The notes under the pieces are model-generated. The model searched no databases and was not told where the DNA came from. It saw nothing but the letters and a program-made list of their open reading frames with translations. A DNA stretch of 64,000 bases from NCBI RefSeq assembly GCF_001747405.1, contig NZ_CP017305.1, positions 452,001 to 516,000 of the forward strand, given 5' to 3'. Source of the DNA: Chlorobaculum limnaeum (lineage in GTDB: Bacteria > Bacteroidota > Chlorobiia > Chlorobiales > Chlorobiaceae). The position numbers were made by a program, and so were the translations under genes. Shown in pieces: positions 12,346-46,894 of the stretch; the first letter of the stretch is position 1, and the number at the start of each line of letters is the position of its first letter.

Positions 12346-13065
12346 ATGTTAAAGTACCGGAGAATCCTGCTCAAGATCAGTGGCGAATCTCTTGCTGGAG
12401 AGAGTGGCTATGGCATCGATGCCGGAGTTCTCGAAAGCTTTGCCGACGAGATCAAGGAGGCCTGCGACCTCGGCGCCGAGATCGCTCTCGTGATCGGGGG
12501 CGGCAATATTTTCCGCGGCCTCTCCACGGCAGCGGCCTCGATGGATCGCGTGCAGGCCGACTACATGGGGATGCTCGCCACGGTCATCAACTCGCTGGCG
12601 CTTCAGGACGCGCTCGAACGGAAAGGCATCTACACCCGCCTCTTGACCGCCATCAAGATGGAGCAGATCGCCGAGCCGTTCATCCGCCGCCGCGCAGTGC
12701 GACACCTCGAAAAAGGGCGCGTCGTCATCTTCGGCGCGGGCACCGGCAATCCCTACTTCACCACCGATACCGCCGCTTCGCTTCGCGCCATCGAAATCGA
12801 GGCCAGCGTCATCATCAAAGGCACCAGAGTCGAGGGTGTGTACGATTCCGACCCCGAAAAGAATCCCGACGCGGAGTTCTTCCCGCGCATTTCCTACTTC
12901 GACGTAATCCGCAAAAACCTCCGGGTGATGGACATGACCGCCATCACGCTCTGTCGCGAAAACACCCTGCCGATTGTCGTGATGAATATGAACACCAGCG
13001 GCAACCTGACCCGCCTGCTCAAGGGCGAACCGATAGGAACGCTCGTGCACGCAGGCGAAGAGTAG
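12346..13065 (+). CDS. pyrH: UMP kinase
   Basis: The protein has 239 residues and is a bacterial hexameric UMP kinase of the amino acid kinase fold. It shows [51 protein letters not shown] and [19 protein letters not shown]. It phosphorylates UMP to UDP. AAAGGAG lies 8 nt before ATG 12346. It comes after the tsf terminator, so it has its own promoter in the 65-bp gap. Confidence 0.97.
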
Positions 13066-13066
13066 C

Positions 13067-13245
13067 AGTTGATAATGGATAATTGACGATTGATAATGGA
13101 AGAGGGCGGGCTGGAAGGTTCGCCCTTTTGCGTTGTGGGGGAGTGCAGGAAATGGACGTTGTGGACTTGATGGACGATGATGGACGCAATGGACATACCT
13201 GTTCTTCTCTTACATTGTCAATTATCCATTATCAATTCATTCCCT
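13067..13245. repeat. Short-repeat tracts between pyrH and recX
   Basis: The gap between the convergent genes holds three tracts. TTGATAATGGATAATTGACGATTGATAATGG lies at 13070-13099. ATGGAC/GTGGAC units lie at about 13152-13195. Finally, ATTGTCAATTATCCATTATCAATTC at 13215-13240 is the reverse complement family of the first tract. The outer tracts can pair over about 120 nt. No gene is evident. Confidence 0.6.
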
Positions 13246-13711
13246 CCATTTCATCTTTCTCGCCCGTCACCTGTTCCACCGTTTCGCGAATGGTTTCCCA
13301 GTCGAAGCCGCGGTTTTTGAGGAAGGCGATGAGCTTTTTCTTTTTCTGTTCGGACGGGCCGGTGAGGGTGCGTATCCTCTTTTCGGCGGCTGCGCGGCAA
13401 AGGGCGGCCTGATCGAAGCTGGTGATCGCTTCGTCGATGATCTCGTTGGGCAATCCCTTTTGCTTGAGTCGGGCGCGGGTTTTGAGGCGGCCTTCGGGTC
13501 TGCGGCGGGCCATGCCGGTCATGCAGCTTTGCGCGAATGCGCGATCGTCGGTCAGACCAAGCTCGTCGAGTCTTGCGAGGGCTTTCGAGATCGCATCGGC
13601 GTCGAATCCCTTTTTTCTGAGCTTGGCTTCGAGTTCGGCTCTGCCGTGCGCCCTTCCGGCCAGCAGCCGGATGGCCGTGTCGAGCGCCGAACTCTTTTTG
13701 TTTTCATCCAT
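13232..13711 (-). CDS. recX: RecX family regulatory protein
   Basis: The protein has 159 residues, near the usual RecX length. The three-helix repeats are visible: [25 protein letters not shown], then [21 protein letters not shown], then [22 protein letters not shown] and [24 protein letters not shown]. RecX modulates RecA filaments. Its start codon overlaps the end of bchQ by 8 bp on the same strand, so it is probably translated from the bchQ transcript. recA is not nearby, which is unusual for recX. Confidence 0.85.
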
Positions 13712-15125
13712 TCAGCGCCGGTTTGACGCCTGCCAACATGCCGGGGTTCATCTTGTGGTCGCGCTCGAATGCCTTGAGCTGTGCGCTCAGGTGCGTTTTG
13801 AAGGCGATACTCGTGACGAGGTTGATCAGTTTCCTCGGGTTGTAGAGGGTTCTGAGCAGAATCTCCTTCCAGGTGTAGACGTTGACGTAACTCTTGAGCA
13901 CCTTGTACTGGAAGAGCAGCGGCTCGTAGCGGTCGGACTTGATGACCAGGTGCAGGGCGTTGTACTTCTCCCAGTCCTCGATGGTGATGAGGCCGCTATC
14001 CTTGTATTCGTGGTACATCTGCGTGCCGGGATAGGGGGTGATGATCTGGAAGATCGGCATGAAGATGTGGTTCTTCTTGACGAACTGCACCAGCTCGTCG
14101 ATGTCCTCGAAGGTGTCGATGGCCGGGTTGAAGAGGAAGTTGCCCTGGATGTTGAGACCGGCCTTGCGGCAGTCGTCGATGATTTTCGAGTACTTTTCCG
14201 CTGAGTTGACGTGTCCCTTGTTGTAAGCTTCGAGCGTGCTCTGCTTGATCGATTCGAGACCGGCCAGCACGAAGTTGCATCCGGCATCCACCAGCTTTTT
14301 AACCGTGGTCGGATCTTCGAGGAAGTTGATGCTGAGGAAGACGCTGAAGGTGATGTCGCACTCCTTGAGCAGGTCGAGCGACTCCCAGAGCTTGTTCTTG
14401 TTGATGCCAAGGTTTTCGTCGGTCAGCATGAACCAGGGCTTCGAGTTCTTGCCGTTCGCCTTGAAGAAGTACTTTTTCGCCTCCTCGACCTGATGTTTCA
14501 GCGCCTCCGGATTCTGCACACGGTACTGCTTTCCCGTAAAATTTGGCGTAACGCAGAAGGAGCAGTTGAACGGGCAGCCGCGAGTGACGTAAATCGGAAT
14601 CGACTTGGTGCCGTCAACCTTCGTGCGTTTCGATGCCTTGGCGATGCGGGCGTAATCGAGCGGCGTGATCGCTTTGACCGGCGGGAAATCCTTGGAGTCG
14701 TAGCGACTCTTGAGCCGCTTGTTGGCTACGTCGTCGAGCAGGGTCGTCCAGAGATTGTCCGCCTCGCCAACCACGATGCAGTCCGCATGAACTGCCGCTT
14801 CGTCGGGGTTGAACGAAATGTGCAGCCCTCCGAGTACCACGGTCTTGCCGTGCTTGCGGAACTCGTCGGCGATCTCGTAAGCGCGGGTGGCTTCGATGGT
14901 TCGCGAAGTGATGCCGACCATGTCGTAGTCGCCATCGTAATCGATCTTGTCGTGGAAGTGTTCGTCCACGAGTTCGATGTGATGTTGAGGTGGAGTCAGG
15001 CTTGTCAGCACGCCGAGCGCCATGTGGAAGAGGGGCTTCTGATTGCTGTCGTCATCCATTTTGCCCTGCGGGGATACGAGCAGGATTTTCAGGGGCCGGG
15101 TGGCTGCTGGGTCAGGAAATTGCAT
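13704..15125 (-). CDS. bchQ: Bacteriochlorophyllide C-8(2) methyltransferase, B12-type radical SAM
   Basis: The protein has about 473 residues from ATG 15125. It has a cobalamin-binding-like N-terminal domain (about 13-140, with [24 protein letters not shown] and [14 protein letters not shown]), the radical SAM motif [11 protein letters not shown] (about 181-190), and a C-terminal helical region. BchQ methylates the C-8 side chain of chlorosome bacteriochlorophylls. I base this on family features and on my memory that in Chlorobaculum tepidum bchQ and bchV lie near the RuBisCO-like protein gene, as here. The alternative is the paralogue BchR (C-12). The frame stays open to 15215, but that extension looks non-conserved. 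recX overlaps its 3' end. Confidence 0.78.
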
Positions 15126-15429
15126 CAGGTCAAAAAAACCGGATTTATCGAAAAAACCATGACTCTGTAGTGCAGGATTGCCCGGATTTGCCTGGGCAGG
15201 CAAGCGGGTTTTCAACCTGTCTGGTGAAACCTACGAAACCTGCCGAATTTAGCAAAATATTCCGGTAATGACAATTTCGTCAGTGCCGTAAAAAAGATCG
15301 TGGCGGAAGCGCAATTTCGCTTTTCAGAGGTTTTTCAGGGTATCCGGATTTTGCTATATTCCCTGCTTCATACAGCCGGACTGGCTGTTACAATCGTCCA
15401 CTTTCAGTTGCAAGCACAAGAAAGACTTC

Positions 15430-24327: not shown

Positions 24328-25056
24328 TCACTTGATGGTCAATGGCTCCGACAGGCGAAAACCTTTGCCGCGTACCGTTCTGACCGGCAGTTTTATGCCG
24401 TGCTCCGCGCCTTTCTGGCGAAGCCTGTGAACCACGACGTCCAGCGCCTTGCTTCCTGATGTGACGTCATCGTAGCCGAGCGCCTCTGTAAGCTCCAGGC
24501 GTGAAACGAAGTTTGGATTCGAGGCGAGATGCGCCAGAAAGTCCACCTCTTTCGACGACAGGCCGAGCTTGTCGCCTGTGGGCGTGATGATGGTCGCCGT
24601 GGCTCTCAACAGTTGCCAGCTCGAGGATAACGGTTCGAGAGGATTGAGCGCGCGAGCCGCGTCATCCTCTCCCGTCGGGGAGAACCGGCCAAGGTTGCTC
24701 TCGACCGACGCGATCAGCTCGTCGGTATTGACCGGCTTGAGCAGATAGGTGTCCGCCCCGGCCTTGTAGGCGGACACTCGGCTTTCGAGCGAAGAGCGGG
24801 CGGTGAGAATGATGATCCGCATGTTGGTGTTCTGGCGGATAAATTCGGCCAGCACCACGCCGTTCTGGTCGGGAAGTCCGAGGTCGAGGATCACCAGCGC
24901 GTAAGGTTTCTGGGCGACCTTGTGGTAGAAATCCAGAGCGCTTTTCGCTCCGGTCGCTTCGTAACCATACAGCGAGAGGGTTTCGACAATGCTGTCGCGG
25001 AAATCGCTGTCATCTTCCACGACGATAATCCTGCCCTTTTCAGCGTCATTGTTCAC
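24328..25056 (-). CDS. OmpR/PhoB-type response regulator
   Basis: The protein has 242 residues. The receiver domain (about 1-125) has acidic residues VVEDDSDF, phospho-acceptor Asp in LVILDLGLPDQNG near 57, Thr in IIILTARSS and the conserved Lys in YLLKPVN. The C-terminal winged helix (about 145-240) shows LSSKEVDFLAHLASNPNFVS, ALDVVVHRLRQK and VRTVRGKGFRL. It lies 50 bp downstream of a multi-PAS histidine kinase on the same strand, its probable partner. Its targets are unknown; the upstream pigment genes are candidates. Confidence 0.9.
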   Translation of the reverse strand: MNNDAEKGRIIVVEDDSDFRDSIVETLSLYGYEATGAKSALDFYHKVAQKPYALVILDLGLPDQNGVVLAEFIRQNTNMRIIILTARSSLESRVSAYKAGADTYLLKPVNTDELIASVESNLGRFSPTGEDDAARALNPLEPLSSSWQLLRATATIITPTGDKLGLSSKEVDFLAHLASNPNFVSRLELTEALGYDDVTSGSKALDVVVHRLRQKGAEHGIKLPVRTVRGKGFRLSEPLTIK

Positions 25057-25106: not shown

Positions 25107-27800
25107 TTAATCTGGCTGGTTATCGATGATGACCGGCAGGGTGATGGTGGCCTCGATGCGCTTTCCGGTTTTGGCGAGCGTGATGGAGCCGTCGTGCTGC
25201 GTGACGATATTCTTCACCAGCCAGAGCCCTAGGCCCGCGCCGACAGTGTTGCTCGTGTTGGCGCCACGGTGATATTTTTCGAAAAACATCTCGAGTTCCA
25301 TTTCGCTGAGGTCGGATAGAAGCTTGTTTCCGACCACGATTTTAACACTGTTGTCATCTTTGCTCAAGCACTTGATCGTGATGGTGGACTCTTCGGGCGA
25401 GTACTTGCGGGCGTTGTCGAGGAGGTTGAAGATCGCAAATTTAATGCCTGACTCCTCGCCGTAAATGCTGACGTTTTCCGGGCAGTTTTCAAACACCACC
25501 TTTCGCTCTTTCCAGATTCCCGAAAAGGTATCCACCTGCGATTTGATGATTTTCGCCAAAGGCAACTGGTGGCGGTTGACCAGCGACTTGTGGCGATCGG
25601 CCATTTTGCTCTCCTGAATGGAGACTTCGAGAACCTCCACCAGGCGGGCGATGCTCCGCTCGATTTTCGAGAACTCCTGCTTGTTGGTGTAGTTCCCCAT
25701 CTTGTGCTTGATCTTGATGAGGTCGAGATTGGTTCTCATGATGGCAAGCGGGGTGCGGTAGTCGTGGGAAATCATGCTCAGGAAGCGGTGCAAACGCTCC
25801 ACCTCCTTCTGCAACTGGATGTTCCGGTCGGCGATGGACTGTTCGAGGCGGCTGATATTCTGCTGCTGCATTTTCTCCAGCGTGATGTCCACCATCATGA
25901 CGAGCAGCACCGCCGCGCCTTCGATTTCGATGAACTCCGTCGAGTAGAGCACATCGACGATGTCGCCGCTTTTGTCGTTCAGCAGAAACGCCTTGTTGCA
26001 GATTCTTTCGCGTCTGGCGACGGTCGAGAGAATCGCTTCGTAATCCGATTCATGGTAATGCATGCCGATTTCCAGCCCGGTCTTGCCGGTCACCTCTTCG
26101 GGAGCGTAGCCGAGCAGTTCGAGCCATGAGTCGTTGACATCGATGATCCTGCCGGTTTCGATCTCCTTGATGGCGATGGCTATCGGGGCGTTATCGAAGA
26201 TGCTCCTGAATTTCCGCTCGTTTTCGCGCAGCTCGTCGTCGAGCCGCTTCCTTTCGGTAATGTCCATCACCGTGCCGACGTAACGGTCAAGCTCGCCCGC
26301 CTCGTTCCGTTGCGGCTTGCCGCGGCAGGCCAGCCAGTGCAGCGAGCCGTCCTCGGGGTGGCAGACACGGAACTCGATATCGATGTTGATCTCCCTCGTC
26401 GCGGCCTCCATGACGATGCCGAAGGTCTGTTCCCGGTCGTCGGGGTGGACGGTGCTTTCGCACAGTTTGTGGTTGTGAGGCTTGCTGTCGGGGGTGAGGC
26501 CGTAGAGGCGCCAGATGCGGTCAGACCAGTAAACCTCGTCATTTTTGAGGTGCCACTCCCACACACCCGCTTTGGTGGCTTCGAGGGCGAAGGCCATTCG
26601 GGTCTGGCTTTTGAGGAGCTGCTCTTCGAGTGACTTCTGCCGGGTGATGTCGATGATCGTGCCGAGGTATCTGACAATCGCTCCCCGGTTGTCCCTCACG
26701 GGTTTTCCTCTCGAAAGCAGCCAGTGAACCGATCCATCCGGGTAAAGGACGCGATACTCGATGGAGATATCGCTGCCTTCCGTCGAGGCCTTGCGAACCG
26801 TCTGGCAGGTCGCCTCCCGGTCTTCGGGAAGAATGGTCTCCGCCCAGAGCGCGAACGAGGGGGAGTTATCATGCGGTTCGAGACCGTACAGTCTCCAGAC
26901 TTCGTCTGACCAGATATTGACGCCGCTTTTCAGATTCCATTCCCAGATCCCCGCATTGGCCGCTTCGAGCGCCTGATCGAGCCGGGCCTTGTTTTCGAGC
27001 AGCGTGTTTTCGACCAGCTTCCGCTCGGTGATGTCGGTAATGAGGCCGATGTATCTGACGAGCTTTCCATCGGCGTCATACTTCGGCGATCCCTGGGAGA
27101 GCAGCCAGTGCACGGAGCCGTCCGCCGGATGAATCACCCGGTACTCCACCGAAGCGGCCCGCCCCTCGCGAACGGCATCCCTGATCACCGTACGCACGAA
27201 GGCGCGATCCTCCTCGTGAACCGTGATGACGCAAAGTTCATTGCTGAGCTCCCGGCTGTCGGGTTCAAGTCCGTAGAGCGCCCACACCTCCATCGACCAC
27301 ATCAGCCGGTCGGTGTCGGCCTCCCACTCCCAGATGCCGGAGCGAGCCGCTTCGAGAGCGAAGGAGATGCGCTCCTTGTGTTCGAGCAGCTCCTGCCGAA
27401 TCGCGGCGCTGTCGCTGCCGGCATCGGCCTCTGCAAGTTTGGTAAGGTTGCCATCGGGCGAGGATTCCGTTGCCCGGTTCAGAGGCAGGGTGACGATCAG
27501 CATCGTTTCGCCCTCCCGGGTTTGCGGCAGCACGCTGACCATGCCGGAGGAGTGGCCGGTCGCGAAGGCCTCGTTCACCATGCCGGAGATGGCCTCTGCC
27601 TGCAATGACCAAAGGGGAGAGGCGGAGAGGAGAGTGGCAAGAGGTTTCCCGAAACAGAGATCGGCGTTTGCGCCAACCTCGGCAAAAAACGGTTTGTTCG
27701 CGTGAAGGAGCGTGCCTGCGCGATTGACGATGGCTGCCGCATCCTGTATCAGTTCGATCAGGAGGTTGATGGTTTTGTCATCACAAACGGATACAGGCAT
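25107..27800 (-). CDS. Soluble multi-PAS sensor histidine kinase
   Basis: The protein has 897 residues and no membrane segments. Five PAS domains are visible: a divergent one at about 10-110, three similar ones each carrying a GIWEWE/GIWEWN/GVWEWH and LYGLxPDS pattern (starting near 147, 276 and 403), and a fifth with FRSIFDNAPIAIAIKEIETG near 535. A short coiled coil then leads to the His box FLSMISHDYRTPLA near 673-686 and a HATPase domain with NLLDNARKYSPEE and GAGLGLWLVKNIV. It should sense a cytoplasmic signal such as redox, light or oxygen. It is followed by a response regulator and preceded by the chlorophyll synthase gene. Confidence 0.9.
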   Translation of the reverse strand: MPVSVCDDKTINLLIELIQDAAAIVNRAGTLLHANKPFFAEVGANADLCFGKPLATLLSASPLWSLQAEAISGMVNEAFATGHSSGMVSVLPQTREGETMLIVTLPLNRATESSPDGNLTKLAEADAGSDSAAIRQELLEHKERISFALEAARSGIWEWEADTDRLMWSMEVWALYGLEPDSRELSNELCVITVHEEDRAFVRTVIRDAVREGRAASVEYRVIHPADGSVHWLLSQGSPKYDADGKLVRYIGLITDITERKLVENTLLENKARLDQALEAANAGIWEWNLKSGVNIWSDEVWRLYGLEPHDNSPSFALWAETILPEDREATCQTVRKASTEGSDISIEYRVLYPDGSVHWLLSRGKPVRDNRGAIVRYLGTIIDITRQKSLEEQLLKSQTRMAFALEATKAGVWEWHLKNDEVYWSDRIWRLYGLTPDSKPHNHKLCESTVHPDDREQTFGIVMEAATREINIDIEFRVCHPEDGSLHWLACRGKPQRNEAGELDRYVGTVMDITERKRLDDELRENERKFRSIFDNAPIAIAIKEIETGRIIDVNDSWLELLGYAPEEVTGKTGLEIGMHYHESDYEAILSTVARRERICNKAFLLNDKSGDIVDVLYSTEFIEIEGAAVLLVMMVDITLEKMQQQNISRLEQSIADRNIQLQKEVERLHRFLSMISHDYRTPLAIMRTNLDLIKIKHKMGNYTNKQEFSKIERSIARLVEVLEVSIQESKMADRHKSLVNRHQLPLAKIIKSQVDTFSGIWKERKVVFENCPENVSIYGEESGIKFAIFNLLDNARKYSPEESTITIKCLSKDDNSVKIVVGNKLLSDLSEMELEMFFEKYHRGANTSNTVGAGLGLWLVKNIVTQHDGSITLAKTGKRIEATITLPVIIDNQPD

Positions 27801-27911: not shown

Positions 27912-28925
27912 TCACATATACTTCATGCCGATCATTCCTGCGGCCACGAACTGATTGATGAGAAACAGGATGTTGTTGATCACCTGAAAGCGCAGGAATG
28001 CGTTGTGTTCGTGCACTTCGCTCTTGCCGATGGCGTTGCCGAAGCCGTCGCTGACCGCGCCCTGCATGAACGACGCGCCGGTTCGCGGATCGCGATAGAT
28101 CGGAATCTGCACCAGGATGTTGACCACCAGCGAAACGAGAATCATGTACATCAGGAGATGAAAACCCCACTGCCATGCGAGGATTGCGAAACCTGCAAAG
28201 ACAAGGTCGATGATGATGAAGGCCGTGAGGAAGGTGTAGCGCGAGCCGACGAGCACGGTCAGCGATTTCATGCCGCTTTCGGCATCGCCCTTCTCTGACT
28301 TGAAATCGTTCATGATGATGAGCGAAATCGCCATGAAGAAATTCAGCACGGCCAGCCAGACCACTTCGGGCCTGATTTCGCTGAAGAGCGCGTTTGCCGA
28401 AAGGTAGGTGATGACGCCATAGGACATGCCGACCGCCGGTGCCGAGAGAAAAATGTTCTTTTTCAGCTTGAATGGCGGCGCTGAATAGATATAGCCGAAA
28501 ATCAGGCCGCTTGCCATGCAGACGCTCAGGATGAGGCCCCGCTGGCCGCCGATATGGATCGACAGAGCGATGCTGATGGCGAGCGCGGCGAAGAGCACGA
28601 TGCCCCAGTTCCAGATCGCCTCCCGCTCGGAGATCCGCCCGGAAGGGATCGGCCTGGTCGGTTCGTTGAGCCGGTCGAGTTCCAGATCGAAATAGTCGTT
28701 CACCGACTGGCTGAAACCCGTGCCGAGCGGGCCGTACATGACGAAGAGCAACAAGAGCAGCAGGTAATCATGCCAGGTCGGCTGCATCGCGCCAGAACCC
28801 ATGACACCGCAGGCAAGGCATGGAAAAACGCTGATCCAGGTGACCGGATCGAGCAGCTCGATGTGGGCCTTGATCTTCTCTTTCAGGCCCAGAGAAGAGC
28901 TGGCAGTCAGTGTGGCTATGTTCAT
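27912..28925 (-). CDS. bchK: (Bacterio)chlorophyll synthase, UbiA family, BchK or BchG
   Basis: The protein has about 337 residues from ATG 28925. It is a polytopic UbiA prenyltransferase with the chlorophyll-synthase substrate motif SVNDYFDLELDRLNEPTRP followed by IPSGRISEREA, and a second Asp-rich loop NDFKSEKGDAESGMKSL. These enzymes esterify bacteriochlorophyllides with farnesol or phytol. BchK (chlorosome BChl c/d/e synthase) is preferred over BchG because the gene follows a radical SAM gene and a chlorosome protein gene on the same strand, but the sequence alone does not settle it. The frame is open to 28955. The multi-PAS kinase gene lies 111 bp downstream. Confidence 0.75.
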   Translation of the reverse strand: MNIATLTASSSLGLKEKIKAHIELLDPVTWISVFPCLACGVMGSGAMQPTWHDYLLLLLLFVMYGPLGTGFSQSVNDYFDLELDRLNEPTRPIPSGRISEREAIWNWGIVLFAALAISIALSIHIGGQRGLILSVCMASGLIFGYIYSAPPFKLKKNIFLSAPAVGMSYGVITYLSANALFSEIRPEVVWLAVLNFFMAISLIIMNDFKSEKGDAESGMKSLTVLVGSRYTFLTAFIIIDLVFAGFAILAWQWGFHLLMYMILVSLVVNILVQIPIYRDPRTGASFMQGAVSDGFGNAIGKSEVHEHNAFLRFQVINNILFLINQFVAAGMIGMKYM

Positions 28926-28965
28926 ATCTTGCAAATGATTGGTTCGGAATTGCACGAGCGCGGCA

Positions 28966-30348
28966 TTACAGATACATGGCCGGTTTCAGGGCGCGGGTGA
29001 ACCGGTTCATCTGAAGGTTGGCCAGCCATACCCAGTTCAGCGGCTTGCCCTTCATCCGGCGCATGATGGCGCGTCCACCGTACACCTCTTTCTGTATCTT
29101 CACGAAGTTTTCGAGGAATTTTTCGGTACCGATCCCTTTGGGTTCGAACATGTAGTGATAGGTGTCGAACTTGTCCCAGTCGAAATGGCGCAGCCGTGGC
29201 TTCATCTCGTTGAAATAGGGGGTGCCGGGAAAGGGCGTAACCAGCGAAAAAACCGGGAAATCGATCCGGTTCTCCATGATGAAGTCATAGGTCATCTGGA
29301 AGCTCTCCTCGCTGTCGTTGTCGAAGCCGAACATGAAATAGCCCTGGATGGCGATTTTCTGGTCGTGCAGGTTTTTAACCACCGAGGCGTAGTTGTCCAG
29401 CCGGTTCGACCCCTTGTGCATGCTTTTGAGCGTTTCCGGGTTCAGCGACTCGAACCCGATGCTCATGAGCTCGCACCCCGACCAGGCCGCGAGTTCGGCA
29501 ACTTCTGGGTCGTGGAGGAAATTCATCGAAATGTTGGCGTTCCAGCGAATGTTCAGCCACCCCATCTGGCCGAGCAGCTCCTTGAAATATTTCGGGCGAA
29601 AACTGATGTTGTCGTCCATGAAGGAGAAGTTGACCGCCTCCTTGCCGAGACGCTGCTGATGGTAGCGCATCTCGTCGAGCACCAGGTCGATGTCGCGGTA
29701 GCGGTAGTTCTTGCCGTAAATGGTGGGCGTCGTGCAGAAATCGCATCCGACAGGGCACCCTTTCGTGGCGAGAACGGGAATCCGCGAACTGTATTTCCGG
29801 CTGTTGCGGCTGCGGAGCGCAAATGAAAAATCGGGCCGCAGCATCGCATTCATCGGCTTCAGCGCTTCGGCGCGATAGAGCGGCTTCATCGCGCCGTCGA
29901 TGACATCTTGCGACAGTTCCGGCCACACAGACTCTATTTCGCCATACACGACGCTGGTCGCATGAGCCTGGGCTTCATCGAGGGACATGGTCGGGTGCAC
30001 ACCGCCGAGCAGCGCGATTTTGCCCTGCTTTTTTGCGGCTTCGGCGATGCGGAAGGCTTTTTTCGCGTTCAGGGTGCGAGAGGTGACGGCAACGACGTCA
30101 TAGCCTGAAAAATCCTCCGGAATCCGGTCGCCCAGCCGTTCATCGATGAAATCGACCTCGAAAAGCTCGCTGGCGAGGGTCGCCACCATCATGAGGTTCA
30201 GCGGCATGCTGACGCTTCCCGAATCGACCATCATGCTGGTATTGCTCACCGGCTGAACCAGCAACCATTTTTTTCGTGATTTTCCGTTCATGCCGGTCAA
30301 TCGCCGCTGATCGGGTGTCGCTACAAAGGCAGGGTTTTGGTTTGCCAT
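28966..30348 (-). CDS. B12-type radical SAM protein of the BchQ/BchR/BciD group
   Basis: The protein has 460 residues. A cobalamin-binding-like domain covers about 28-150 (WLLVQPVSN, DVVAVTSRTLNAKKA, LLGGVHPTMSLDEA), followed by the radical SAM cluster motif TKGCPVGCDFC near 195-205. The layout and many segments parallel bchQ in this window (VTSRT, LGGxH, the CPxxCxFC motif, a FPxFxxxTPxPGT segment). That suggests a peripheral modification of bacteriochlorophyllide, such as C-12 methylation (BchR). C-7 oxidation (BciD) is another option, but I cannot decide between them. It lies between csmE-like and chlorophyll synthase genes, 40 bp upstream of the latter's ATG, so operon membership is very likely. 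Confidence 0.72.
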   Translation of the reverse strand: MANQNPAFVATPDQRRLTGMNGKSRKKWLLVQPVSNTSMMVDSGSVSMPLNLMMVATLASELFEVDFIDERLGDRIPEDFSGYDVVAVTSRTLNAKKAFRIAEAAKKQGKIALLGGVHPTMSLDEAQAHATSVVYGEIESVWPELSQDVIDGAMKPLYRAEALKPMNAMLRPDFSFALRSRNSRKYSSRIPVLATKGCPVGCDFCTTPTIYGKNYRYRDIDLVLDEMRYHQQRLGKEAVNFSFMDDNISFRPKYFKELLGQMGWLNIRWNANISMNFLHDPEVAELAAWSGCELMSIGFESLNPETLKSMHKGSNRLDNYASVVKNLHDQKIAIQGYFMFGFDNDSEESFQMTYDFIMENRIDFPVFSLVTPFPGTPYFNEMKPRLRHFDWDKFDTYHYMFEPKGIGTEKFLENFVKIQKEVYGGRAIMRRMKGKPLNWVWLANLQMNRFTRALKPAMYL

Positions 30349-30407: not shown

Positions 30408-30665
30408 TCAGGAGTCGAATCTTCTGCCGGTCTCCTTGCTCGGCCGGGCATATCCTGAAACCGCAGGCGAGTTGCCGCGGAAAAGCGCCGTACTGTTTGT
30501 GTTGCCGTAGAGATGAGGATAGGCGTTAGCCCCGAGTCTCTTGGTGCATTTGCCTGCATTTTCGAGATAATCGCCGACCACCCACCAGTGACCGTCGATG
30601 AAAACTTCGAGAAACCTGCCATAAGCTTCGGCGCCGCGCACAAACGCGCCGTTAAAATCCGTCAT
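30408..30665 (-). CDS. csmE: Chlorosome envelope/baseplate protein, CsmA/CsmE family
   Basis: The protein has 85 residues. The core FVRGAEAYGRFLEVFIDGHWWVVG DYLENAGK aligns with CsmA (GRIFEVMVEGHWETVG, then GK and RINRNAYG). The His in GHW corresponds to the proposed BChl a ligand of the baseplate, and RLGANAYPHLYG matches the mature end of CsmA. About 35 more residues follow, longer than the cleaved CsmA tail and comparable in plan to the CsmE precursor. Because it differs from CsmA at many sites I call it CsmE-like. It heads the minus-strand run leading to radical SAM and chlorophyll synthase genes. Confidence 0.72.
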   Translation of the reverse strand: MTDFNGAFVRGAEAYGRFLEVFIDGHWWVVGDYLENAGKCTKRLGANAYPHLYGNTNSTALFRGNSPAVSGYARPSKETGRRFDS

Positions 30666-31095
30666 GATGGTGTGGTTCGTTTGAAAGAGTTGGTCAATGC
30701 GGTATTGCTGTTTGAATGTAATAAATGTAAGTAATTTATTCCAAGGATTATTGCTCAACAGGCGTCGCCAGTGGCGAATCCGCATCGAGCGTTTGGGGAT
30801 GAAAAACCGTTGTGCTCCGGGCGGCTTCTTCCTGTGCCAGCCGTTAGTTGTTGATTTTGTTTGTAAATACTTATTTTATTATTGTTTATGTTGTTTTTCC
30901 GAGAAGTTTTTTTTGCAACTGCCTCAAAAGATGTCATCAGGCGCGATGTCAGGAAGATCGCGAGGTAATCGCGTGTTTTCATGGTCATTGGAGCAGCTCT
31001 CAAATTTTTTCTTTTAAAAACAACATAAATAAACTATACTTTGCGTAAGAAAAGAAAGTTTTTGAGCTTTCCCAACCAAAAAACCATAAGTAGCT
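30666..31095. promoter_or_regulatory. Intergenic region between divergent chlorosome genes
   Basis: These 430 bp separate the csmE-like (minus) and csmB-like (plus) genes and should hold both promoters. The stretch 30850-31060 is AT-rich with runs of T and A. TATACT at 31035-31040 is a fair -10 candidate for the csmB-like gene, but I see no convincing -35. Short open frames here have no recognisable product. Confidence 0.4.
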
Positions 31096-31323
31096 ATGGC
31101 ACAAGAGACTACCAGCAATTTTGCGCAGTCATTGAACGATCTCATGGGCGCTGTAGGAAAAATCGGCCAGATGCAGGTCGATCTTCTTTCCTCGGTACTC
31201 AATTCGGCGGTTTCCGCTATCGAGCCGATGAGTAAAACTGCAAGCGAGCTTGTCGGCAACGTTGCCAATACCGCAACCCAGGCGGTGCAGGGCGTTGTTT
31301 CGGCAATTGCCCCCAAAAAGTGA
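31096..31323 (+). CDS. csmB: Chlorosome envelope protein, CsmB/CsmF family
   Basis: The protein has 75 residues, the size of CsmB (about 7.5 kDa). It is helical, with SNFAQSLNDLMGAVGKIGQMQVDLLSS, then SAIEPMSKTASELVGNVANTATQAVQGV and the end SAIAPKK, a pattern I associate with CsmB/CsmF proteins of the chlorosome lipid monolayer. CsmF cannot be excluded. No strong ribosome site precedes ATG 31096. It starts a run of small hydrophobic genes and lies opposite the csmE-like gene. Confidence 0.68.
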   Translation: MAQETTSNFAQSLNDLMGAVGKIGQMQVDLLSSVLNSAVSAIEPMSKTASELVGNVANTATQAVQGVVSAIAPKK

Positions 31324-31427
31324 TTCGTGGCATTTTCCAGGCAAGGTGATCCATGCGGCCAAGGCGTGGGTCGCCTTACTTTTTCCCTTTTTGTTTCACG
31401 TCGCCTAATCTTTACAGCAACAGAACC

Positions 31428-31772
31428 ATGCCAGAGTCTTCCAGCACAGCGCTGAACCCTTCACAGAACGGCGTCAAGGGTTGGGCCATGATGCTTCCTG
31501 TCGTTGGTCTCCCGTTAGGAGTTCATGCCATCGGCGGTGCGCTTTTTGCCGGTGTCGGCATTGCCGTTACTATCGCTCCGATAGCTCTTCCGGCTGCCGT
31601 TCCCCTGCTCTACAGCGTTGCCTCGAATGGTGGTTTCGATTCCATCGTCAGAAAGATTTTTCCATCTGCCGCTACGTCGGGAGCCGTGCAAAAGGTTGCC
31701 ATCAACGTGCCTCATGCCGTCGGCAAGGAGGCAGAGCCAGTCACAAGTACCGTCATTCAGGCAAGCGTTTAA
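31428..31772 (+). CDS. Small hydrophobic protein, probable chlorosome envelope protein (CsmC/CsmD-like)
   Basis: The protein has 114 residues from ATG 31428. A hydrophobic, Gly/Ala/Val-rich middle (about 18-63: MMLPVVGLPLGVHAIGGAL, then FAGVGIAVTIAPIALPAAV) is followed by a polar C-terminus. The size (about 11 kDa) and composition fit the CsmC/CsmD family of chlorosome proteins, and the csmB-like gene lies 104 bp upstream. I do not have a diagnostic motif, so the family assignment is inference from size, composition and position. Confidence 0.55.
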   Translation: MPESSSTALNPSQNGVKGWAMMLPVVGLPLGVHAIGGALFAGVGIAVTIAPIALPAAVPLLYSVASNGGFDSIVRKIFPSAATSGAVQKVAINVPHAVGKEAEPVTSTVIQASV

Positions 31773-31796
31773 TCAGTAAACCGGGACAAGCCCACT

Positions 31797-32033
31797 ATGA
31801 TCAGGCAATTATGGCTCAATGCGGTTAACTCCGCATGGAAAGGGTACATAAAAAGAATTGACAAGTGCCAGGCCGACAAGAAGTTCAGCGATTACCTCAA
31901 GCAGAGGGTCGATCTCGACATGACTCTCGAAGAGTTTGGCGAAATGATTTTCATAGCAGGATTTACGGCGGGAGAAGAGTATGCCGGCACCCTTCCGTTA
32001 CCGAAAGGAGGCCAGACCGTCAGAATGAACTGA
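31797..32033 (+). CDS. Small soluble hypothetical protein in the chlorosome cluster
   Basis: The protein has 78 residues, charged and helical: NAVNSAWKGYIKRIDKCQADKKFSDYL, then LDMTLEEFGEMIFIAGFTAGEEYAGT. I do not recognise the family. It lies 24 bp after one putative chlorosome protein gene and 51 bp before another, all on the same strand, so it is likely part of the same operon. Codon use looks like its neighbours. Confidence 0.6.
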   Translation: MIRQLWLNAVNSAWKGYIKRIDKCQADKKFSDYLKQRVDLDMTLEEFGEMIFIAGFTAGEEYAGTLPLPKGGQTVRMN

Positions 32034-32084
32034 TCGTTCGGGCCGGCCATAGCCTCGTTTCCAGAATTATGTAAAAAAGATATA

Positions 32085-32393
32085 ATGGATAGAACCAGCA
32101 TGAATCAGAATCCGATAACCACGACGGTTACGGCCGTCGGGCTTGCCGGTGGCGCGGCTTTTCTGGCTCCCGTAGCAGCTCCGGCAATACATGGTATTGC
32201 TGGCTTTGCGGTTGTGGGGCTGGGAGTTTATGCGACCGGTTCTGCGGTTTTCAACGCAACACGCTTTCTCAACGAAAAAGCCACGGGCATTTTGAATGAT
32301 GGAGCGATGGTTGTAGAATTGATCAAAGGAAGCGTTCTGTCGAACTCCAGGCCGAAAGCGCCCGCAAAGGAGGTTCCGTTCAGGCGCAAGTGA
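32085..32393 (+). CDS. Small hydrophobic protein, possible chlorosome envelope protein
   Basis: The protein has 102 residues, or 97 if it starts at ATG 32100. An Ala/Gly/Val-rich region (about 12-55: VTAVGLAGGAAFLAPVAAPA, then GFAVVGLGVYATGSAVFN) is followed by an amphipathic helix with FLNEKATGILNDGAMVVELI and a basic tail. It resembles the composition of CsmC/CsmD proteins and of the product of 31428-31772. No diagnostic motif was found, so the assignment is tentative. The DUF2156 gene starts 29 bp later. Confidence 0.52.
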   Translation: MDRTSMNQNPITTTVTAVGLAGGAAFLAPVAAPAIHGIAGFAVVGLGVYATGSAVFNATRFLNEKATGILNDGAMVVELIKGSVLSNSRPKAPAKEVPFRRK

Positions 32394-34904: not shown

Positions 34905-36278
34905 ACTAAAAGGGCTCTTCGCAGAATTTAATGGGCTGGTAGTAAAAATGAGTGGCTTGGTGTAATTTATCCAAGAACGCCAAAACACTAACCCCAACGT
35001 ATGCCGAGCCTCATTACCCATTACCAGCAGTTATTAGGATTACCAGAAACATGGAAGGTGTCTGATGTCCGGCTGTCGACGTCCGGCCCCCGGATAGAAA
35101 TCCATCTGGAGTATATCGGACCCAAAGTCGAATGCCCTGAATGCGGCAAGGCCGGACGAATTTATGACCTGGCGCCAGAACAACGGTGGCGGCATCTGGA
35201 TACCATGGAGTACGAGACGCATCTGATAGCCAGGGTGCCTCGGTGTGAGTGCAAAGAGCACAGGATCAAGACAATTCAAGTTCCGTGGGCAACGCGCTAT
35301 TCGCGCTACACCCTGAAGTTTGAAGCGCTTGCTGTCGAGTTGCTTCAGGAGTGTTCAAGCATTCAGTCGGCATCGAGGCTCTTGCGATTGAACTGGCATG
35401 CAACCAACGAGATCATGAACCGTGCAGTTAAGCGAGGCCTGAGCCGCCGGAATAAGGAGGCGATTGCTCATCTTGGTCTTGATGAAAAGAGCTTCCGGGC
35501 AGGCCATCAGTATGTGACGATCCTGAACGACCTGAAAGGTGGCCGGGTACTTGAGGTGGTCCAGAGCCGAACGACCGATGGAGCAGAAGCGCTACTCCTC
35601 AGCTTTGAAGCATCGCAACGCCAGGGTGTGAAATCGATCTCGATGGATATGTGGAAACCCTTCGCGATTGCTGCCAAAAAGCATCTGCCGCAGGCCGATA
35701 TTGTGCATGACCGTTTCCATATCAGCAAATATCTGAACGAGGCGGTCGACACGGTTCGTCGCCAAGAGTCCCGTCAACTTCATCATGCAGGGGACAGGAC
35801 TCTGATTGGCTCGAAATTCACCTGGCTGCGCAATCCGGAGAACATGACGGAAAGCCAGCGGACAAGCTTTGATCAATTGATGGCCTGTGAGCTGAAAACC
35901 GGAAAAGCCTGGTCGATGAAGAACATGTTTCGGGAGTTCTGGCGGCTGGGTTGTCGAGAGAGTGCAAGCTTCTTTTTCGATTACTGGTCTGAGCGCGTTG
36001 ACCAGTTAGCGTTGAAACCCATGATCAAGGTCAAAGAGCTGCTGAAGCGGCATCTCGACAACATCCTGAACTATTTCGAGCACGAAATGACCAACGCAGT
36101 TTCCGAAGGTCTGAACAGCAAGATCCAGTTGTACAAAGCATCGGCCCGTGGGTTCCACAGCTTTCACAGCTACCGCATAAGGATTTTGTTTTACTGTGGA
36201 AAGCTCAACATGGCTATTACCGGTTGACGTAATTGCTGACGAGCGTTACCATTAAATCTTACGAAGAACCACTAAAAG
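34905..36278 (+). mobile_element. Insertion sequence of the ISL3 family, copy 1, with target duplication
   Basis: The element spans 34913-36270 (1358 bp). Its ends are imperfect inverted repeats: left GGCTCTTCGCAGAATTTAAT, right (reverse strand) GGTTCTTCGTAAGATTTAAT, with 18 of 22 bases matching. A perfect 8-bp direct duplication, ACTAAAAG, flanks it at 34905-34912 and 36271-36278, the size expected for ISL3. The only gene is a transposase. The copy at 52520-53877 is the same length; the one difference I noticed is G here for A there in a Glu codon (35993/53600). Confidence 0.95.
35001..36227 (+). CDS. ISL3 family transposase, copy 1
   Basis: The protein has 408 residues. The N-terminal zinc ribbon has CPECGK and a later CECKEH. 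A helix-turn-helix region follows. The DDE domain has LGLDEKSFRAGHQYVTIL, VHDRFHISKYLNEAVD and the Glu in NAVSEGLNSKIQ. The reading frame is intact and the terminal repeats are present, so the element should be active. The ATG at 35001 lies 88 bp inside the left end. Confidence 0.93.
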   Translation: MPSLITHYQQLLGLPETWKVSDVRLSTSGPRIEIHLEYIGPKVECPECGKAGRIYDLAPEQRWRHLDTMEYETHLIARVPRCECKEHRIKTIQVPWATRYSRYTLKFEALAVELLQECSSIQSASRLLRLNWHATNEIMNRAVKRGLSRRNKEAIAHLGLDEKSFRAGHQYVTILNDLKGGRVLEVVQSRTTDGAEALLLSFEASQRQGVKSISMDMWKPFAIAAKKHLPQADIVHDRFHISKYLNEAVDTVRRQESRQLHHAGDRTLIGSKFTWLRNPENMTESQRTSFDQLMACELKTGKAWSMKNMFREFWRLGCRESASFFFDYWSERVDQLALKPMIKVKELLKRHLDNILNYFEHEMTNAVSEGLNSKIQLYKASARGFHSFHSYRIRILFYCGKLNMAITG

Positions 36279-42962: not shown

Positions 42963-43334
42963 CACTCCTCATCTTTATGCTCCACATAAAAGGTTTCTTA
43001 GCTCGAATGGCAATAAATGATTACCTTTCGCTTATGAGTGTTGTTGTTATACTCTTGAATGACTCTGTGGACGGCATTTAAGCAAAAAAACCGAATACCC
43101 CACGATCGAAGGTCTTTCCAATATGCTCAGACCACATACCAGATTTAGCGTTCTATATACATTAATGGGTCATTGCACTGTTATCATCATATCCTCATGT
43201 TCTGGCTTTTTCGCCTATTGAGCAGCTTACCAGAGTTCTGCCGTGCAAGAAGCGAATAGCGTTTCATAACACTCCTTGTAGGATTTTTTCGATGCTTCTC
43301 GTTCCGATTCATTCAGATTTCATTGTTTGAAGCC
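42963..43334. other. Low-GC leader upstream of the Gabija-like pair
   Basis: About 370 bp without a recognisable gene. The GC content is lower than in the preceding chromosome. It should hold the promoter of the gajA-like gene; TATACT near 43050 and TATAT near 43156 are weak candidates. No repeats or tRNA are seen. Confidence 0.4.
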
Positions 43335-45146
43335 ATGTACCTTTCACGTATCATCATCAGAAACTTCCGCAACTTTGCATTGCTTGATGTAAAGCTCCAG
43401 AATGGAGTGACATGCGTCATCGGGGAGAATAACTCTGGAAAGACCAATTTGCTACACGCACTTCGGCTTGCTATCGACACTAATCTTTCCTCTTCTTACC
43501 GAGCCCTGCTTCCTCATGACATTCATGCAGAGGAAGATTTTGAGATACCCAACCAAGTTCTCATTTCTGTTGAATTTGTAGGCTACAAGAATTCAATTAA
43601 TGACACGGCTTTATTTGGAAGTTGTGAGGTAAAAGAGGATTTGGCACGTATTCACTACCGTTTCAGGCCGCGCCGTGAGGTACGTGAGGAGATCGAAAAT
43701 GGGGATCGTGATCCCGTGGGGCTTTCTCTATCCGAGGACTACCATTACGAACTCACGGGAGGTGGTGCAGCAGACCCCACTACGGTCGCTTGGGATGAGG
43801 ATCTTGGAGGGGCACTTCGCTTTGGTGATCTTCAGGCCTTCCATATCGAGTATCTGCCTGCGCTACGGGACGTAAAGAGCAGCCTTCACAATTCTTATGA
43901 ATCTCCCTTGGGCCGTGTGCTCGGCGTTAGTAAGTTCGATGACACAGAAAAAGAGGCGCTCGTTTCAATTCTACGGGAGGCAAACTCTGCCATTGAAAAG
44001 CAACCAACTATTGAAGCCGCTGGGATGGCAATCAAGAATGCCTTCTCCAACACCTCGGGCGAAGCGCACGAAATGGGGCTCAAGCTCGGCATGTCCGAGC
44101 CAAGCTTTACGTCGATATCTCGCTCACTAAAGATTCTTCTTTCAAATGGCGCCATCAGTGATTTCGAGCCAGGTCGAAACGGTTTAGGGCTTAATAATAT
44201 CCTCTACATCAGCATGATCCTCGAGTATTTCGAGCGGAGGGCAGAGGCAGCACGAGCCTCTGGGCAGCTCCTGCTGATCGAAGAGCCCGAAGCCCATTTG
44301 CATCCGCAGCTCCAGCGTGTGCTTTACAGATCCCTTGCAGACAAGTCCTTTCAGTCGATACTCACTACCCATAGCACCCACATCAGTTCGCATGCTCCTC
44401 TGGAATCTTATATAACCTTAACGACTGAGCGAGGATCATCATCGAGCGGTTGTACACTCAAAGAGGCAGCAGGACTGAGTGATTCTGAAACTGCTGATCT
44501 AAATCGCTTTCTCGAAGCGACACGATCTATTCTTCTATATGCTCGCAAGGTGATTCTTGTCGAAGGGCCTTCCGAGTTGTTTTTGATACCAGCCCTCGTC
44601 AAATCAGTCATGAATATTGATCTCGACCGTTACGGTATATCTGTCGTGCCAATTTTCGGCAAACACTTTAAGACCTATGCAAAGTTGTTTGGGCCTGATG
44701 CGCTACGAAAGAAATGTGTGATCATCACTGACGGTGATATTACCATTGAGGACTGCGAGGAGGGCACGCAGGAGGATGACCCTATCGAAGTTAGTGTTGA
44801 TGAGTATGGTTTGAATGAATTCTTACAAGTTTTCAAATGCCCAGTAACGTTCGAAAGGGGGATGACGGTAAAAGGTACGTTGCCCATGTTGCTCGCAGCT
44901 TTGGGCGAGTGCAATTACCCGAAGGCTGTTGAAGCTTTCGAAAAAGGAATTACTGACTTGGAGACAGTGACTGACAATGACGTGATTCAGCAAAAGCTTG
45001 CGCCGTTGCGTGAGAAGACGCTCGCAAGTGCCGAGCGCTGCGGTAAGTCACGATTTGCGCAAATTGCCTCGAAATACACAGATCGTTCGTTCAGTCTGCC
45101 GAAATACATTCGAGAGGCTGTCGAGTGGATAATGGAGGATGAATGA
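43335..45146 (+). CDS. gajA: Gabija-type OLD family ATPase/nuclease (GajA-like)
   Basis: The protein has about 603 residues from ATG 43335. The N-terminal ABC-type ATPase has IIIRNFRNF, Walker A GENNSGKTNLLHAL near 30-43 and Walker B LLIEEPEAHLHPQLQR near 312. The C-terminal TOPRIM nuclease domain has the catalytic Glu in VILVEGPSELFLIPAL near 403-418 and the Asp pair in CVIITDGDITIED near 460. This is the OLD (overcoming lysogenization defect) architecture. The next gene, a UvrD-like helicase, overlaps by 4 bp, the arrangement of Gabija anti-phage systems, where GajA nicks DNA under nucleotide control. The length is close to known GajA (about 580). Lower GC than flanks suggests transfer. Confidence 0.85.
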   Translation: MYLSRIIIRNFRNFALLDVKLQNGVTCVIGENNSGKTNLLHALRLAIDTNLSSSYRALLPHDIHAEEDFEIPNQVLISVEFVGYKNSINDTALFGSCEVKEDLARIHYRFRPRREVREEIENGDRDPVGLSLSEDYHYELTGGGAADPTTVAWDEDLGGALRFGDLQAFHIEYLPALRDVKSSLHNSYESPLGRVLGVSKFDDTEKEALVSILREANSAIEKQPTIEAAGMAIKNAFSNTSGEAHEMGLKLGMSEPSFTSISRSLKILLSNGAISDFEPGRNGLGLNNILYISMILEYFERRAEAARASGQLLLIEEPEAHLHPQLQRVLYRSLADKSFQSILTTHSTHISSHAPLESYITLTTERGSSSSGCTLKEAAGLSDSETADLNRFLEATRSILLYARKVILVEGPSELFLIPALVKSVMNIDLDRYGISVVPIFGKHFKTYAKLFGPDALRKKCVIITDGDITIEDCEEGTQEDDPIEVSVDEYGLNEFLQVFKCPVTFERGMTVKGTLPMLLAALGECNYPKAVEAFEKGITDLETVTDNDVIQQKLAPLREKTLASAERCGKSRFAQIASKYTDRSFSLPKYIREAVEWIMEDE

Positions 45147-46894
45147 AGCTGACTGGACAGCAAAGAAACGCGGTTCAACATTTGGGCCATACAGTTATTA
45201 CCGCTTGTCCAGGTAGTGGAAAGACCCGCACCATCATTGCCAAGGTGCTAAGGTGTATTGACGAACTCTCCGGAACCCCGCGCAAGGTGGCGTGCATTAC
45301 CTACACCAACACAGCGGTCCATGAGATAGAGAACAGAATCCGGGCAAGCGGGGCGGCCACGAGTGAAGGTTGTTACGAGGTGTCCACCATTCATGCCTTC
45401 TGTCAGGCGAATATTCTCGGCAAATACCACTGGATGATGGAGGCTTATAAAGATGGCTACATTGTCTTGCCTTCCGATCATGATGCCTATATAGAGCTCG
45501 TTAAGGAAATTGGAGACCGCTATAGCTTGACAGACGTTGAGCGTTCGAAGTTCGAAGAGCTCGGGCGCAAGCCCGATGGCACACCGATCTCTGCTGTTAT
45601 TCCGGCAAAGGCTGCCTTAGCCTTTTGGGATGAACTGGAAAAACGGGGGTATATTGATTTTTGCAATATTGTTTACCACTCTTACCAGCTTGTCCGTGAC
45701 AATCCTTCAATAGCCCACAACCTATCCTGCCGTTTTGCTTATATATTGGTCGATGAGTTTCAAGATACGTCTGCTCTTCAGGTAGAGCTTTTGGCCCTAA
45801 TTCATGATGTGGGCCACACGATATTTTTTCTTGTCGGTGATCCAGAGCAATCAATCTATAGCTTTGCAGGTGCAGATCGGAAGTTGATGGAGGCATTCTC
45901 GCAAGTGATTGGCGCGAAAGGATTTCCTTTGTCGGGCAATTTCAGAGCAACTCAGCCACTTGTGGAACATGCCGAACGGCTTATTGCGCGTCATCCGCCA
46001 ATGGTCTCAACCAGCAAAACTTCAGCCTTTTATCCCTCAGTTTTTTATGAACATACGCAGGACAGCTTTTCGGCAATTACTGATTTTTTCTTGCCCTTCC
46101 TTGAGGCAAATGAGATCAGCTATGGCCATACGGCTATCCTCGCACAGAATTGGTTTGTCCTGAGTCCGCTTGGCAAACAGCTTCGTGAATACGGTATTCC
46201 CGTTGTTGGACCAGGCACTAGACCATATAAGCGCAAGTACTTGCTTGGCAGGATTGCTGAACAGGTTTGCGCTTACCTTGAGAGTAGTGATCCGGAAATA
46301 CTGTATCGGACGGAAAAGGAACTCTTTATGATCGCTAATGAGTTGACCGGTAGGCCTTATTTTCGGATCTTTTCTTACAAAGGTATGAGGGTTGTACACC
46401 TTTTGATGCGCATGGGCGATAGTTTACGTCAAACCCATGAGGCGGCAACCGAGTGGTTGTATGCTGTCGCTCCAGCCTTTGAAGAGATTCTCATCGAAGA
46501 GGAGATACTGCCAGTGAACTACAAAGGGTGCCTTTCTGAATCGTGTGATGAGATGTTCGCAGAAATGAGAGCTCATAACATTGATGTTACCAATATGGCG
46601 CTTGCTGATCTCGGTATTCTTGCTGATCCACGCAAGAGCATGAAACTTATGACAATGCACGGTGCCAAAGGCCGGGAATTTGAAGCTGTGGCGATTATCT
46701 GCGCGCACGACGGTCTTGTACCTTATTACAATTATTATAATCAGCTATCTCATGCAGGATTGGAGGAAGCCCGGCGGCTTTTCTACGTAGCCATGACCCG
46801 TGCTGAAAGGGCCCTTTGGATTTTCTCATCCTTTAACAACCGTCGTCAGCCGCCATCAAGGTTTATTCAAGAGATCGGTTTACATGTAAGCTGA
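45143..46894 (+). CDS. gajB: Gabija-type UvrD/Rep-like helicase (GajB-like)
   Basis: The protein has 583 residues. SF1A helicase motifs are complete: Walker A ACPGSGKTRTI (21-31), Ia CITYTNTAV, STIHAFC, II ILVDEFQDTSALQ near 203, III LVGDPEQSIYSFAGAD near 231, IV LSGNFRATQPL near 263, V MTMHGAKGREFEAV near 503 and VI LFYVAMTRAERAL near 546. It starts inside the last codons of the gajA-like gene (ATGA overlap), so the pair is translationally coupled. In Gabija, GajB senses DNA ends and activates GajA. At 583 residues it is longer than the best-known GajB (about 490). Some other OLD-UvrD pairs share this layout. Confidence 0.83.
   Translation: MKLTGQQRNAVQHLGHTVITACPGSGKTRTIIAKVLRCIDELSGTPRKVACITYTNTAVHEIENRIRASGAATSEGCYEVSTIHAFCQANILGKYHWMMEAYKDGYIVLPSDHDAYIELVKEIGDRYSLTDVERSKFEELGRKPDGTPISAVIPAKAALAFWDELEKRGYIDFCNIVYHSYQLVRDNPSIAHNLSCRFAYILVDEFQDTSALQVELLALIHDVGHTIFFLVGDPEQSIYSFAGADRKLMEAFSQVIGAKGFPLSGNFRATQPLVEHAERLIARHPPMVSTSKTSAFYPSVFYEHTQDSFSAITDFFLPFLEANEISYGHTAILAQNWFVLSPLGKQLREYGIPVVGPGTRPYKRKYLLGRIAEQVCAYLESSDPEILYRTEKELFMIANELTGRPYFRIFSYKGMRVVHLLMRMGDSLRQTHEAATEWLYAVAPAFEEILIEEEILPVNYKGCLSESCDEMFAEMRAHNIDVTNMALADLGILADPRKSMKLMTMHGAKGREFEAVAIICAHDGLVPYYNYYNQLSHAGLEEARRLFYVAMTRAERALWIFSSFNNRRQPPSRFIQEIGLHVS

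Follow-up and report, generated by a model that had tools for sequence, protein, structure and literature searches.

Chlorobaculum limnaeum carries, at about 483 kb of its genome, a divergent gene cluster in which paralogues of CsmB and CsmE and of bacteriochlorophyll (BChl) enzymes are combined with small protein families, a DUF2156 enzyme and a PAS kinase/OmpR-type regulator pair. Judging from sequence comparison, we think it probable that this cluster is an accessory chlorosome module whose expression is conditional and governed by its own two-component system. Four small plus-strand genes of the cluster are the subject of the analysis below, and their genomic context makes a chlorosome-related role for them very probable. 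Such a module suggests an ability of some green sulfur bacteria to remodel the light antenna when a particular condition arises. We found no description of this cluster in the literature searched, which consisted largely of papers available without subscription.

Gene content of the divergent cluster

The window, that is, the whole stretch of DNA analysed, is 64,000 nucleotides long and corresponds to bases 452001-516000 of the C. limnaeum genome; its features are listed in Table 1 in window coordinates. The first-pass annotation of this region described a run of four small plus-strand ORFs, and all four are present at the same coordinates. Because p78, hyd1, hyd2-type and CsmB-type proteins are conserved across Chlorobiales genomes, these ORFs are genes and not chance frames; the run does not end with them, however, since a fifth plus-strand gene, of DUF2156 type, starts 30 bases downstream of hyd2. 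The gene on the opposite strand that had been called csmE-like does encode a CsmE-type protein, 68% identical to C. tepidum CsmE, with a PF02043 match (E 4e-30) as well as a CsmE-like N terminus, although its start is probably at 30665 rather than 30785. Between it and the csmB-type gene a small minus-strand gene for a 77-aa protein had been overlooked, as had the larger point that the region holds duplicates of chlorosome and BChl genes accompanied by a two-component system of their own. From the divergent promoter region outward, the minus arm runs through the 77-aa gene, the csmE-type gene, the radical SAM enzyme (rSAM), the BChl c synthase (bchK), the PAS kinase and the OmpR-type regulator.

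Table 1. Features of the cluster, in window coordinates.
Feature	Position	Strand	Remarks
csmB-type gene, 75 aa	31096-31323	+	third CsmB/CsmF paralogue of the C. limnaeum genome
hyd1, 114 aa, Gly/Ala-rich hydrophobic	31428-31772	+	hyd2 paralogue; alternative start 31353 gives 139 aa
p78, 78 aa, small soluble protein family, new	31797-32033	+	
hyd2, 102 aa, Gly-rich hydrophobic	32085-32393	+	
DUF2156/LPG_synthase_C-type protein, 306 aa	32423-33343	+	PF09924 E 1.8e-17; last gene of the plus arm
Cys-motif small gene, 77 aa	30755-30988	-	C-terminal SPN.RCGFATG
csmE paralogue, 85 aa from the start common to CsmE	30408-30665	-	PF02043 E 4.1e-30
Second B12-binding radical SAM bacteriochlorophyllide methyltransferase, BchQ/BchR family	28966-30348	-	
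Second bacteriochlorophyll c synthase, BchK family	27912-28955	-	NF009058 609 bits
Histidine kinase, several PAS domains, HisKA and HATPase_c	25107-27800	-	
OmpR-type response regulator, receiver and Trans_reg_C	24328-25056	-	
Divergent promoter region, 107 bases	30989-31095		between the arms
Hairpin and T-run 3' of the csmB-type gene	31343-31377	+	likely partial terminator

The first gene of the plus arm had been read as CsmB/F-like, and this reading stands: C. tepidum CsmB has three matches in the C. limnaeum genome, among which the cluster copy is 42% identical, aligned over query residues 4-74. CsmB-type proteins occur in 87 of 98 Chlorobiales genomes, with up to eight matches per genome. 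A tree of 45 short CsmB-type sequences, whose 75 columns give weak resolution inside, separates a clade (95/89) from both CsmB and CsmF; this clade holds 19 of the 20 cluster copies, joined by two extra copies from other genomes. The cluster protein thus resembles the CsmB/CsmF family in its length, its GK.GQMQ(V/I) core and its C-terminal SAIAPKK pattern, but differs in being a third paralogue that groups with other cluster copies and is tied to a regulator-bearing cluster.

Elsewhere in the window, a Gabija-type anti-phage defence pair lies at 43323-46894, where GajA (PADLOC E 2e-219) and GajB (E 7e-198) are adjacent, and two 408-aa ORFs at 35001-36227 and 52608-53834 have identical first 100 residues and resemble two copies of one transposase.

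Distribution and ancestry of the duplicated genes

The 78-residue protein p78 is encoded in 35 of 98 Chlorobiales genomes, all of them Chlorobiaceae of two genera (35 of the 86 genomes of the family), and in none of 12 genomes from three other Chlorobiales families. Its homologues in the 34 other Chlorobiaceae genomes are 38-90% identical to it; a lack of homologues in chlorosome-bearing species, one half of what the first-pass annotation gave as refuting its reading, is thus not borne out. When 84,980 species were scanned, each represented by one genome, 31 loci were returned, all labelled as Chlorobi; the scan relies on two short peptide patterns and can miss distant relatives. Among viruses the patterns matched 304 times, and none of these matches was a relative.

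Conservation of gene order in Chlorobiaceae had been suggested as a check, and the divergent cluster is indeed conserved in both main genera. Neighbours were sought, at E 1e-3 or better, around 31 loci that had been found by p78 alone, contigs ending early included. They were present, with the number of loci lacking the gene despite enough contig in brackets, as follows: hyd2 in 30 (1), the kinase in 25 (1), the rSAM gene in 24 (5), the regulator in 22 (2), bchK in 21 (6), hyd1 in 21 (10), csmE in 20 (9), csmB in 19 (12) and the DUF2156 gene in 18 (12). Since csmB, hyd1 and the rSAM gene are each absent from some p78 loci, p78 has no strict need of them. Carriers include Chlorobaculum sp. 24CR, C. 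thiosulfatiphilum DSM 249, Chlorobium sp. N1, C. ferrooxidans DSM 13031 and Pelodictyon luteolum CIII, and in two of these the module shows decay: C. thiosulfatiphilum has a frameshift in hyd2 and a truncated DUF2156 gene, and the P. luteolum CIII assembly has a stop at p78 codon 4. One Chlorobi MAG locus (L062) holds, 2 kb past the cluster at 12597-15140, a further csmE-type gene, another csmB-type gene, a second N-terminal relative of the 77-aa gene and a 2Fe-2S ferredoxin-type protein (PF00111), possibly a second accessory chlorosome cluster.

The module is missing from the model species C. tepidum and from most relatives, and its presence is patchy. The C. tepidum genome used here, whose FMO protein is identical over 350 residues to PDB 3eni, which we take to be the FMO protein of that species, has no p78, no hyd1 and a single bchK. 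A second bchK accompanies p78 closely, being found in 28 of 35 p78 genomes versus 5 of 63 without p78 (Fisher 3.7e-13, uncorrected for relatedness) and, within the family, versus 5 of 51 (Fisher 2.5e-11, likewise uncorrected); the five exceptions carry two bchK copies yet no p78.

The catalytic motifs of the duplicated pigment enzymes, NDYFDLELD in the cluster bchK and CPVGCDFC in the rSAM protein, are intact by eye, and the cluster bchK scores 609 bits against NF009058, above the cut-off of 494 for a BChl c synthase. In a bchK tree built without outgroup, which leaves out the bchK of locus L082 (on the other strand and away from the cluster), 22 cluster copies, drawn from both genera, group in a single clade (95/91, recovered in 92% of bootstrap trees) versus 21 other copies. 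Because copies of both genera fall together apart from the others, the cluster bchK is one old shared duplicate and no local repeat, and the csmB tree gives a similar picture. The other C. limnaeum bchK (genome 2372110) sits on a long branch among Chlorobium copies and not with those of other Chlorobaculum, which suggests a transfer between genera.

The rSAM gene has a different history. Its product shares 74% identity with the copy at genome 947145, and the family is present in all nine genera searched. The rSAM tree, also built without outgroup, places the window-type copies (10 loci) in a 100/100 clade. The remaining 15 cluster copies fall elsewhere: one lies among the canonical copies of Chlorobium, and 14 join a single canonical copy in a group next to the canonical genes of Chlorobaculum. 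There is thus no single cluster clade (4 changes), so recruitment or replacement of the methyltransferase may have happened repeatedly, and the whole module may likewise have been assembled more than once. The only close rSAM copy of C. tepidum lies at 1241894 of 2154946, a position that fits the tag CT1320, presumably bchR, and the cluster protein is most likely of the BchR type within the BchQ/BchR family. BchE was rejected as its identity (84 bits versus that model's cut-off of 481). At locus L080 a gene of NmrA kind, which we take to be BciA, stands between the two pigment enzymes.

These data bear on a simpler explanation, namely that the cluster is a stable duplicate chlorosome set that provides extra gene dosage under no special condition, the two-component genes being unrelated neighbours. 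Such a reading would suit the abundance of CsmB-type paralogues, and Li and Bryant are said to have reported in 2009 that single envelope-protein mutants of C. tepidum are mild. The kinase and the regulator, however, keep their place in most loci and are absent from only one and two of those with enough sequence, the cluster copies of bchK and csmB have stayed in distinct clades, and the presence of the set is patchy, all of which leaves this explanation unlikely.

A second synthase also invites the idea that the cluster is equipment for BChl e, the brown pigment, with the extra enzyme serving BChlide e and the small proteins fitting chlorosomes to the pigment. C. limnaeum DSM 1677T is a brown green sulfur bacterium that makes BChl e (PMC5473272), and passages of two reviews state that every BChl e producer carries one or more second synthases, named BchK2, to which the esterification of BChlides e and f was credited (PMC7242693, PMC9066304). 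We located bciD, the gene for BChl e, through a primer given in a passage of PMC3613366 and then searched for it across the 98 genomes. It is present in nine, of which only three also carry p78 (G000, G025 and G047); thus 32 of the 35 p78 genomes are without a bciD match and six of the nine bciD genomes are without p78. The cluster moreover lies far from bciD, which is at about 2441 kb, and the C. limnaeum synthase at genome 2372110 is an equally good candidate for the reviews' BchK2. Because 32 of 35 p78 genomes lack bciD, we do not regard the cluster as BChl e equipment; the distribution largely refutes a BChl e island as the explanation, and what probability it keeps is very small. The bciD region itself (genome 2434000-2452000) holds a probable carotenoid cyclase gene, presumably cruB, and another B12-type radical SAM-like gene, and the CsmB copy near bciD at genome 2445495 shares just 49% identity with C. 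tepidum CsmB.

The small proteins p78, hyd1, hyd2 and the 77-aa Cys-motif protein

The first-pass annotation stated that the 78-residue protein matched nothing known, and we too found no relative of p78 in Pfam, NCBIfam or PDB. An alignment of 25 sequences has 16 invariant columns and shows the motif LEEF.E..FI.GF.AGE.Y together with a Trp/Tyr pair near the start. The AlphaFold model, of moderate quality (mean pLDDT 80, pTM 0.57), consists of two helices (2-22 and 44-63) and a short middle part, and its best match in the PDB has an E of 5.3, that is, no known fold. By these comparisons p78 is a new protein family found only in Chlorobiaceae. From its soluble, charged nature our guess would be an assembly factor rather than a structural part. 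In loci L077 and L079 p78 occurs twice in tandem.

The two hydrophobic proteins on either side of p78 had been read as CsmC/D-like, and this does not hold. BLASTP gave no alignment for hyd1 with CsmC or for hyd2 with CsmD, hhalign probabilities were 0.15 to 1.7% for all four pairings, and the CsmC profile PF11098, proposed earlier as a check, matches the C. limnaeum genome just once, at 2326475 beside csmA and outside the cluster. With the true csmC there, CsmC/CsmD identity is ruled out, and what hyd1 and hyd2 share with that family is only size and Ala/Gly-rich composition. In C. tepidum a csmD-like gene, which we take to be csmD, adjoins csmE.

A comparison of the hyd1 and hyd2 profiles with each other scored 35.8 (E 6e-6), while the best of 100 column shuffles reached 26.2 (0 of 100 as good), and the shared stretch surrounds a conserved His and a glycine run; on this profile evidence the two are paralogues of each other. 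Homologues of hyd1 begin at the equivalent of 31428, which makes the 114-aa form more likely than the 139-aa form from 31353. Their distributions differ, with hyd1 in 33 and hyd2-type proteins in 80 of the 98 Chlorobiales genomes. Because a shorter hyd2 relative exists elsewhere in the C. limnaeum genome and in C. tepidum, hyd2 is a diverged version of a membrane protein widespread in Chlorobiaceae, whereas hyd1 is restricted. The predicted structure of hyd2 is unusable (mean pLDDT 56).

The overlooked 77-aa protein ends in SPNARCGFATGDAC, and the CGF motif is found at the place of this gene in the window and in 26 of 31 named loci. Its Chlorobium-type relatives are longer, with the motif followed by a Nif11 domain and then a C-terminal LWGNR motif. 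Among five relatives two exceed the gathering score of the Nif11 model (PF07862), two score below it and one has no match (best E 6e-7); the window's own protein has no match to PF07862. We suggest that the 77-aa protein is a chlorosome-linked scaffold or a processed peptide. It resembles Nif11-domain peptides in that its Chlorobium-type versions contain the domain, but differs in the CGF[AS]T motif that precedes it, the LWGNR that follows it and the location of the gene inside a chlorosome cluster. It is hardly probable that the small genes encode some different peptide or membrane system, such as one yielding a Nif11-leader peptide, that only happens to lie beside pigment genes: in favour of this are the Nif11 domains of these relatives and the description, in a passage of PMC2887384, of Chlorobium Nif11 peptides as natural-product precursors, but no peptide-modifying enzyme or exporter was seen in the conserved set, the rSAM protein is close to the order's universal copy, and the window's own 77-aa protein is without the domain. 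Several Chlorobium genomes are rich in Nif11-like ORFs, with as many as 12 matches per genome, probably natural-product precursors.

Possible control of the cluster and comparison with known systems

In the 107-base region between the arms a promoter-like TTTAAA-16-TATACT is found on the plus strand at 31013-31040, in a scan barely above chance (7 sites versus 4.5 expected), and an alignment of ten loci shows conservation near the second hexamer. The hairpin behind the csmB-type gene has 14 pairs, is kept in nine loci and shows compensatory changes at six pairs; it is likely a partial terminator, through which the csmB-type protein would stay in excess. A regular expression search of the cluster kinase found no LOV-type motif.

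To return to the accessory module, we tentatively propose that it amounts to a switchable second chlorosome programme, in which a sensor and a regulator of its own would bring into use alternative BChl enzymes, an alternative CsmB and CsmE, a new membrane pair and p78. A signal, perhaps light level or redox state, would activate the PAS kinase, and the OmpR-type regulator would turn on both arms from the common promoter region. The extra synthase and methyltransferase would then shift the mix of bacteriochlorophyll homologues, and the extra CsmB and CsmE would enter the chlorosome envelope, the CsmB-type protein being made, by virtue of the hairpin, in excess over the factors encoded behind it. 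The small membrane protein pair hyd1 and hyd2 may reside in the envelope or at its contact with the inner membrane, p78 may act as a soluble assembly or adaptor factor, and the DUF2156 enzyme may modify an envelope lipid. Low light is our candidate for the signal, put forward with considerable doubt and solely because BchQ and BchR are needed in low light; their requirement for low-light adaptation was reportedly established by Gomez Maqueo Chew in 2007.

The adjustment of chlorosome pigment mix and size to light by green sulfur bacteria is known at the level of chemistry, and we know of no dedicated regulator for it. A synthase of the BChl family is said to have been given the name BchK2 by Thweatt in 2017. 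The cluster bchK is likewise a second BchK beside the normal one, but in publications BchK2 goes with BChl e makers whereas the cluster copy tracks p78 and not bciD; a passage of the review PMC7242693 calls the role of such second synthases unknown. Since the cluster places a second synthase together with envelope-protein, methyltransferase and two-component genes, both questions, that of the regulator and that of the synthase's role, can be tested in C. limnaeum, whose strain RK-j-1 is naturally transformable according to a passage of PMC3613366. The cluster further supplies candidates for chlorosome or assembly proteins, which work on C. tepidum could not have found.

A parallel, in function only, comes from cyanobacteria, in which FaRLiP clusters are light-induced clusters of paralogues. 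LoLiP is described in a passage of PMC12214013 as another light-induced paralogue cluster of these organisms. As in these clusters, paralogous antenna and pigment genes stand beside a dedicated sensor and regulator, a relation known here from linkage alone, but the genes are unrelated and the chlorosome cluster is without a phytochrome. If true, the switchable programme would be the antenna counterpart of the cyanobacterial light-acclimation clusters, one that could not be revealed in C. tepidum, which lacks the cluster.
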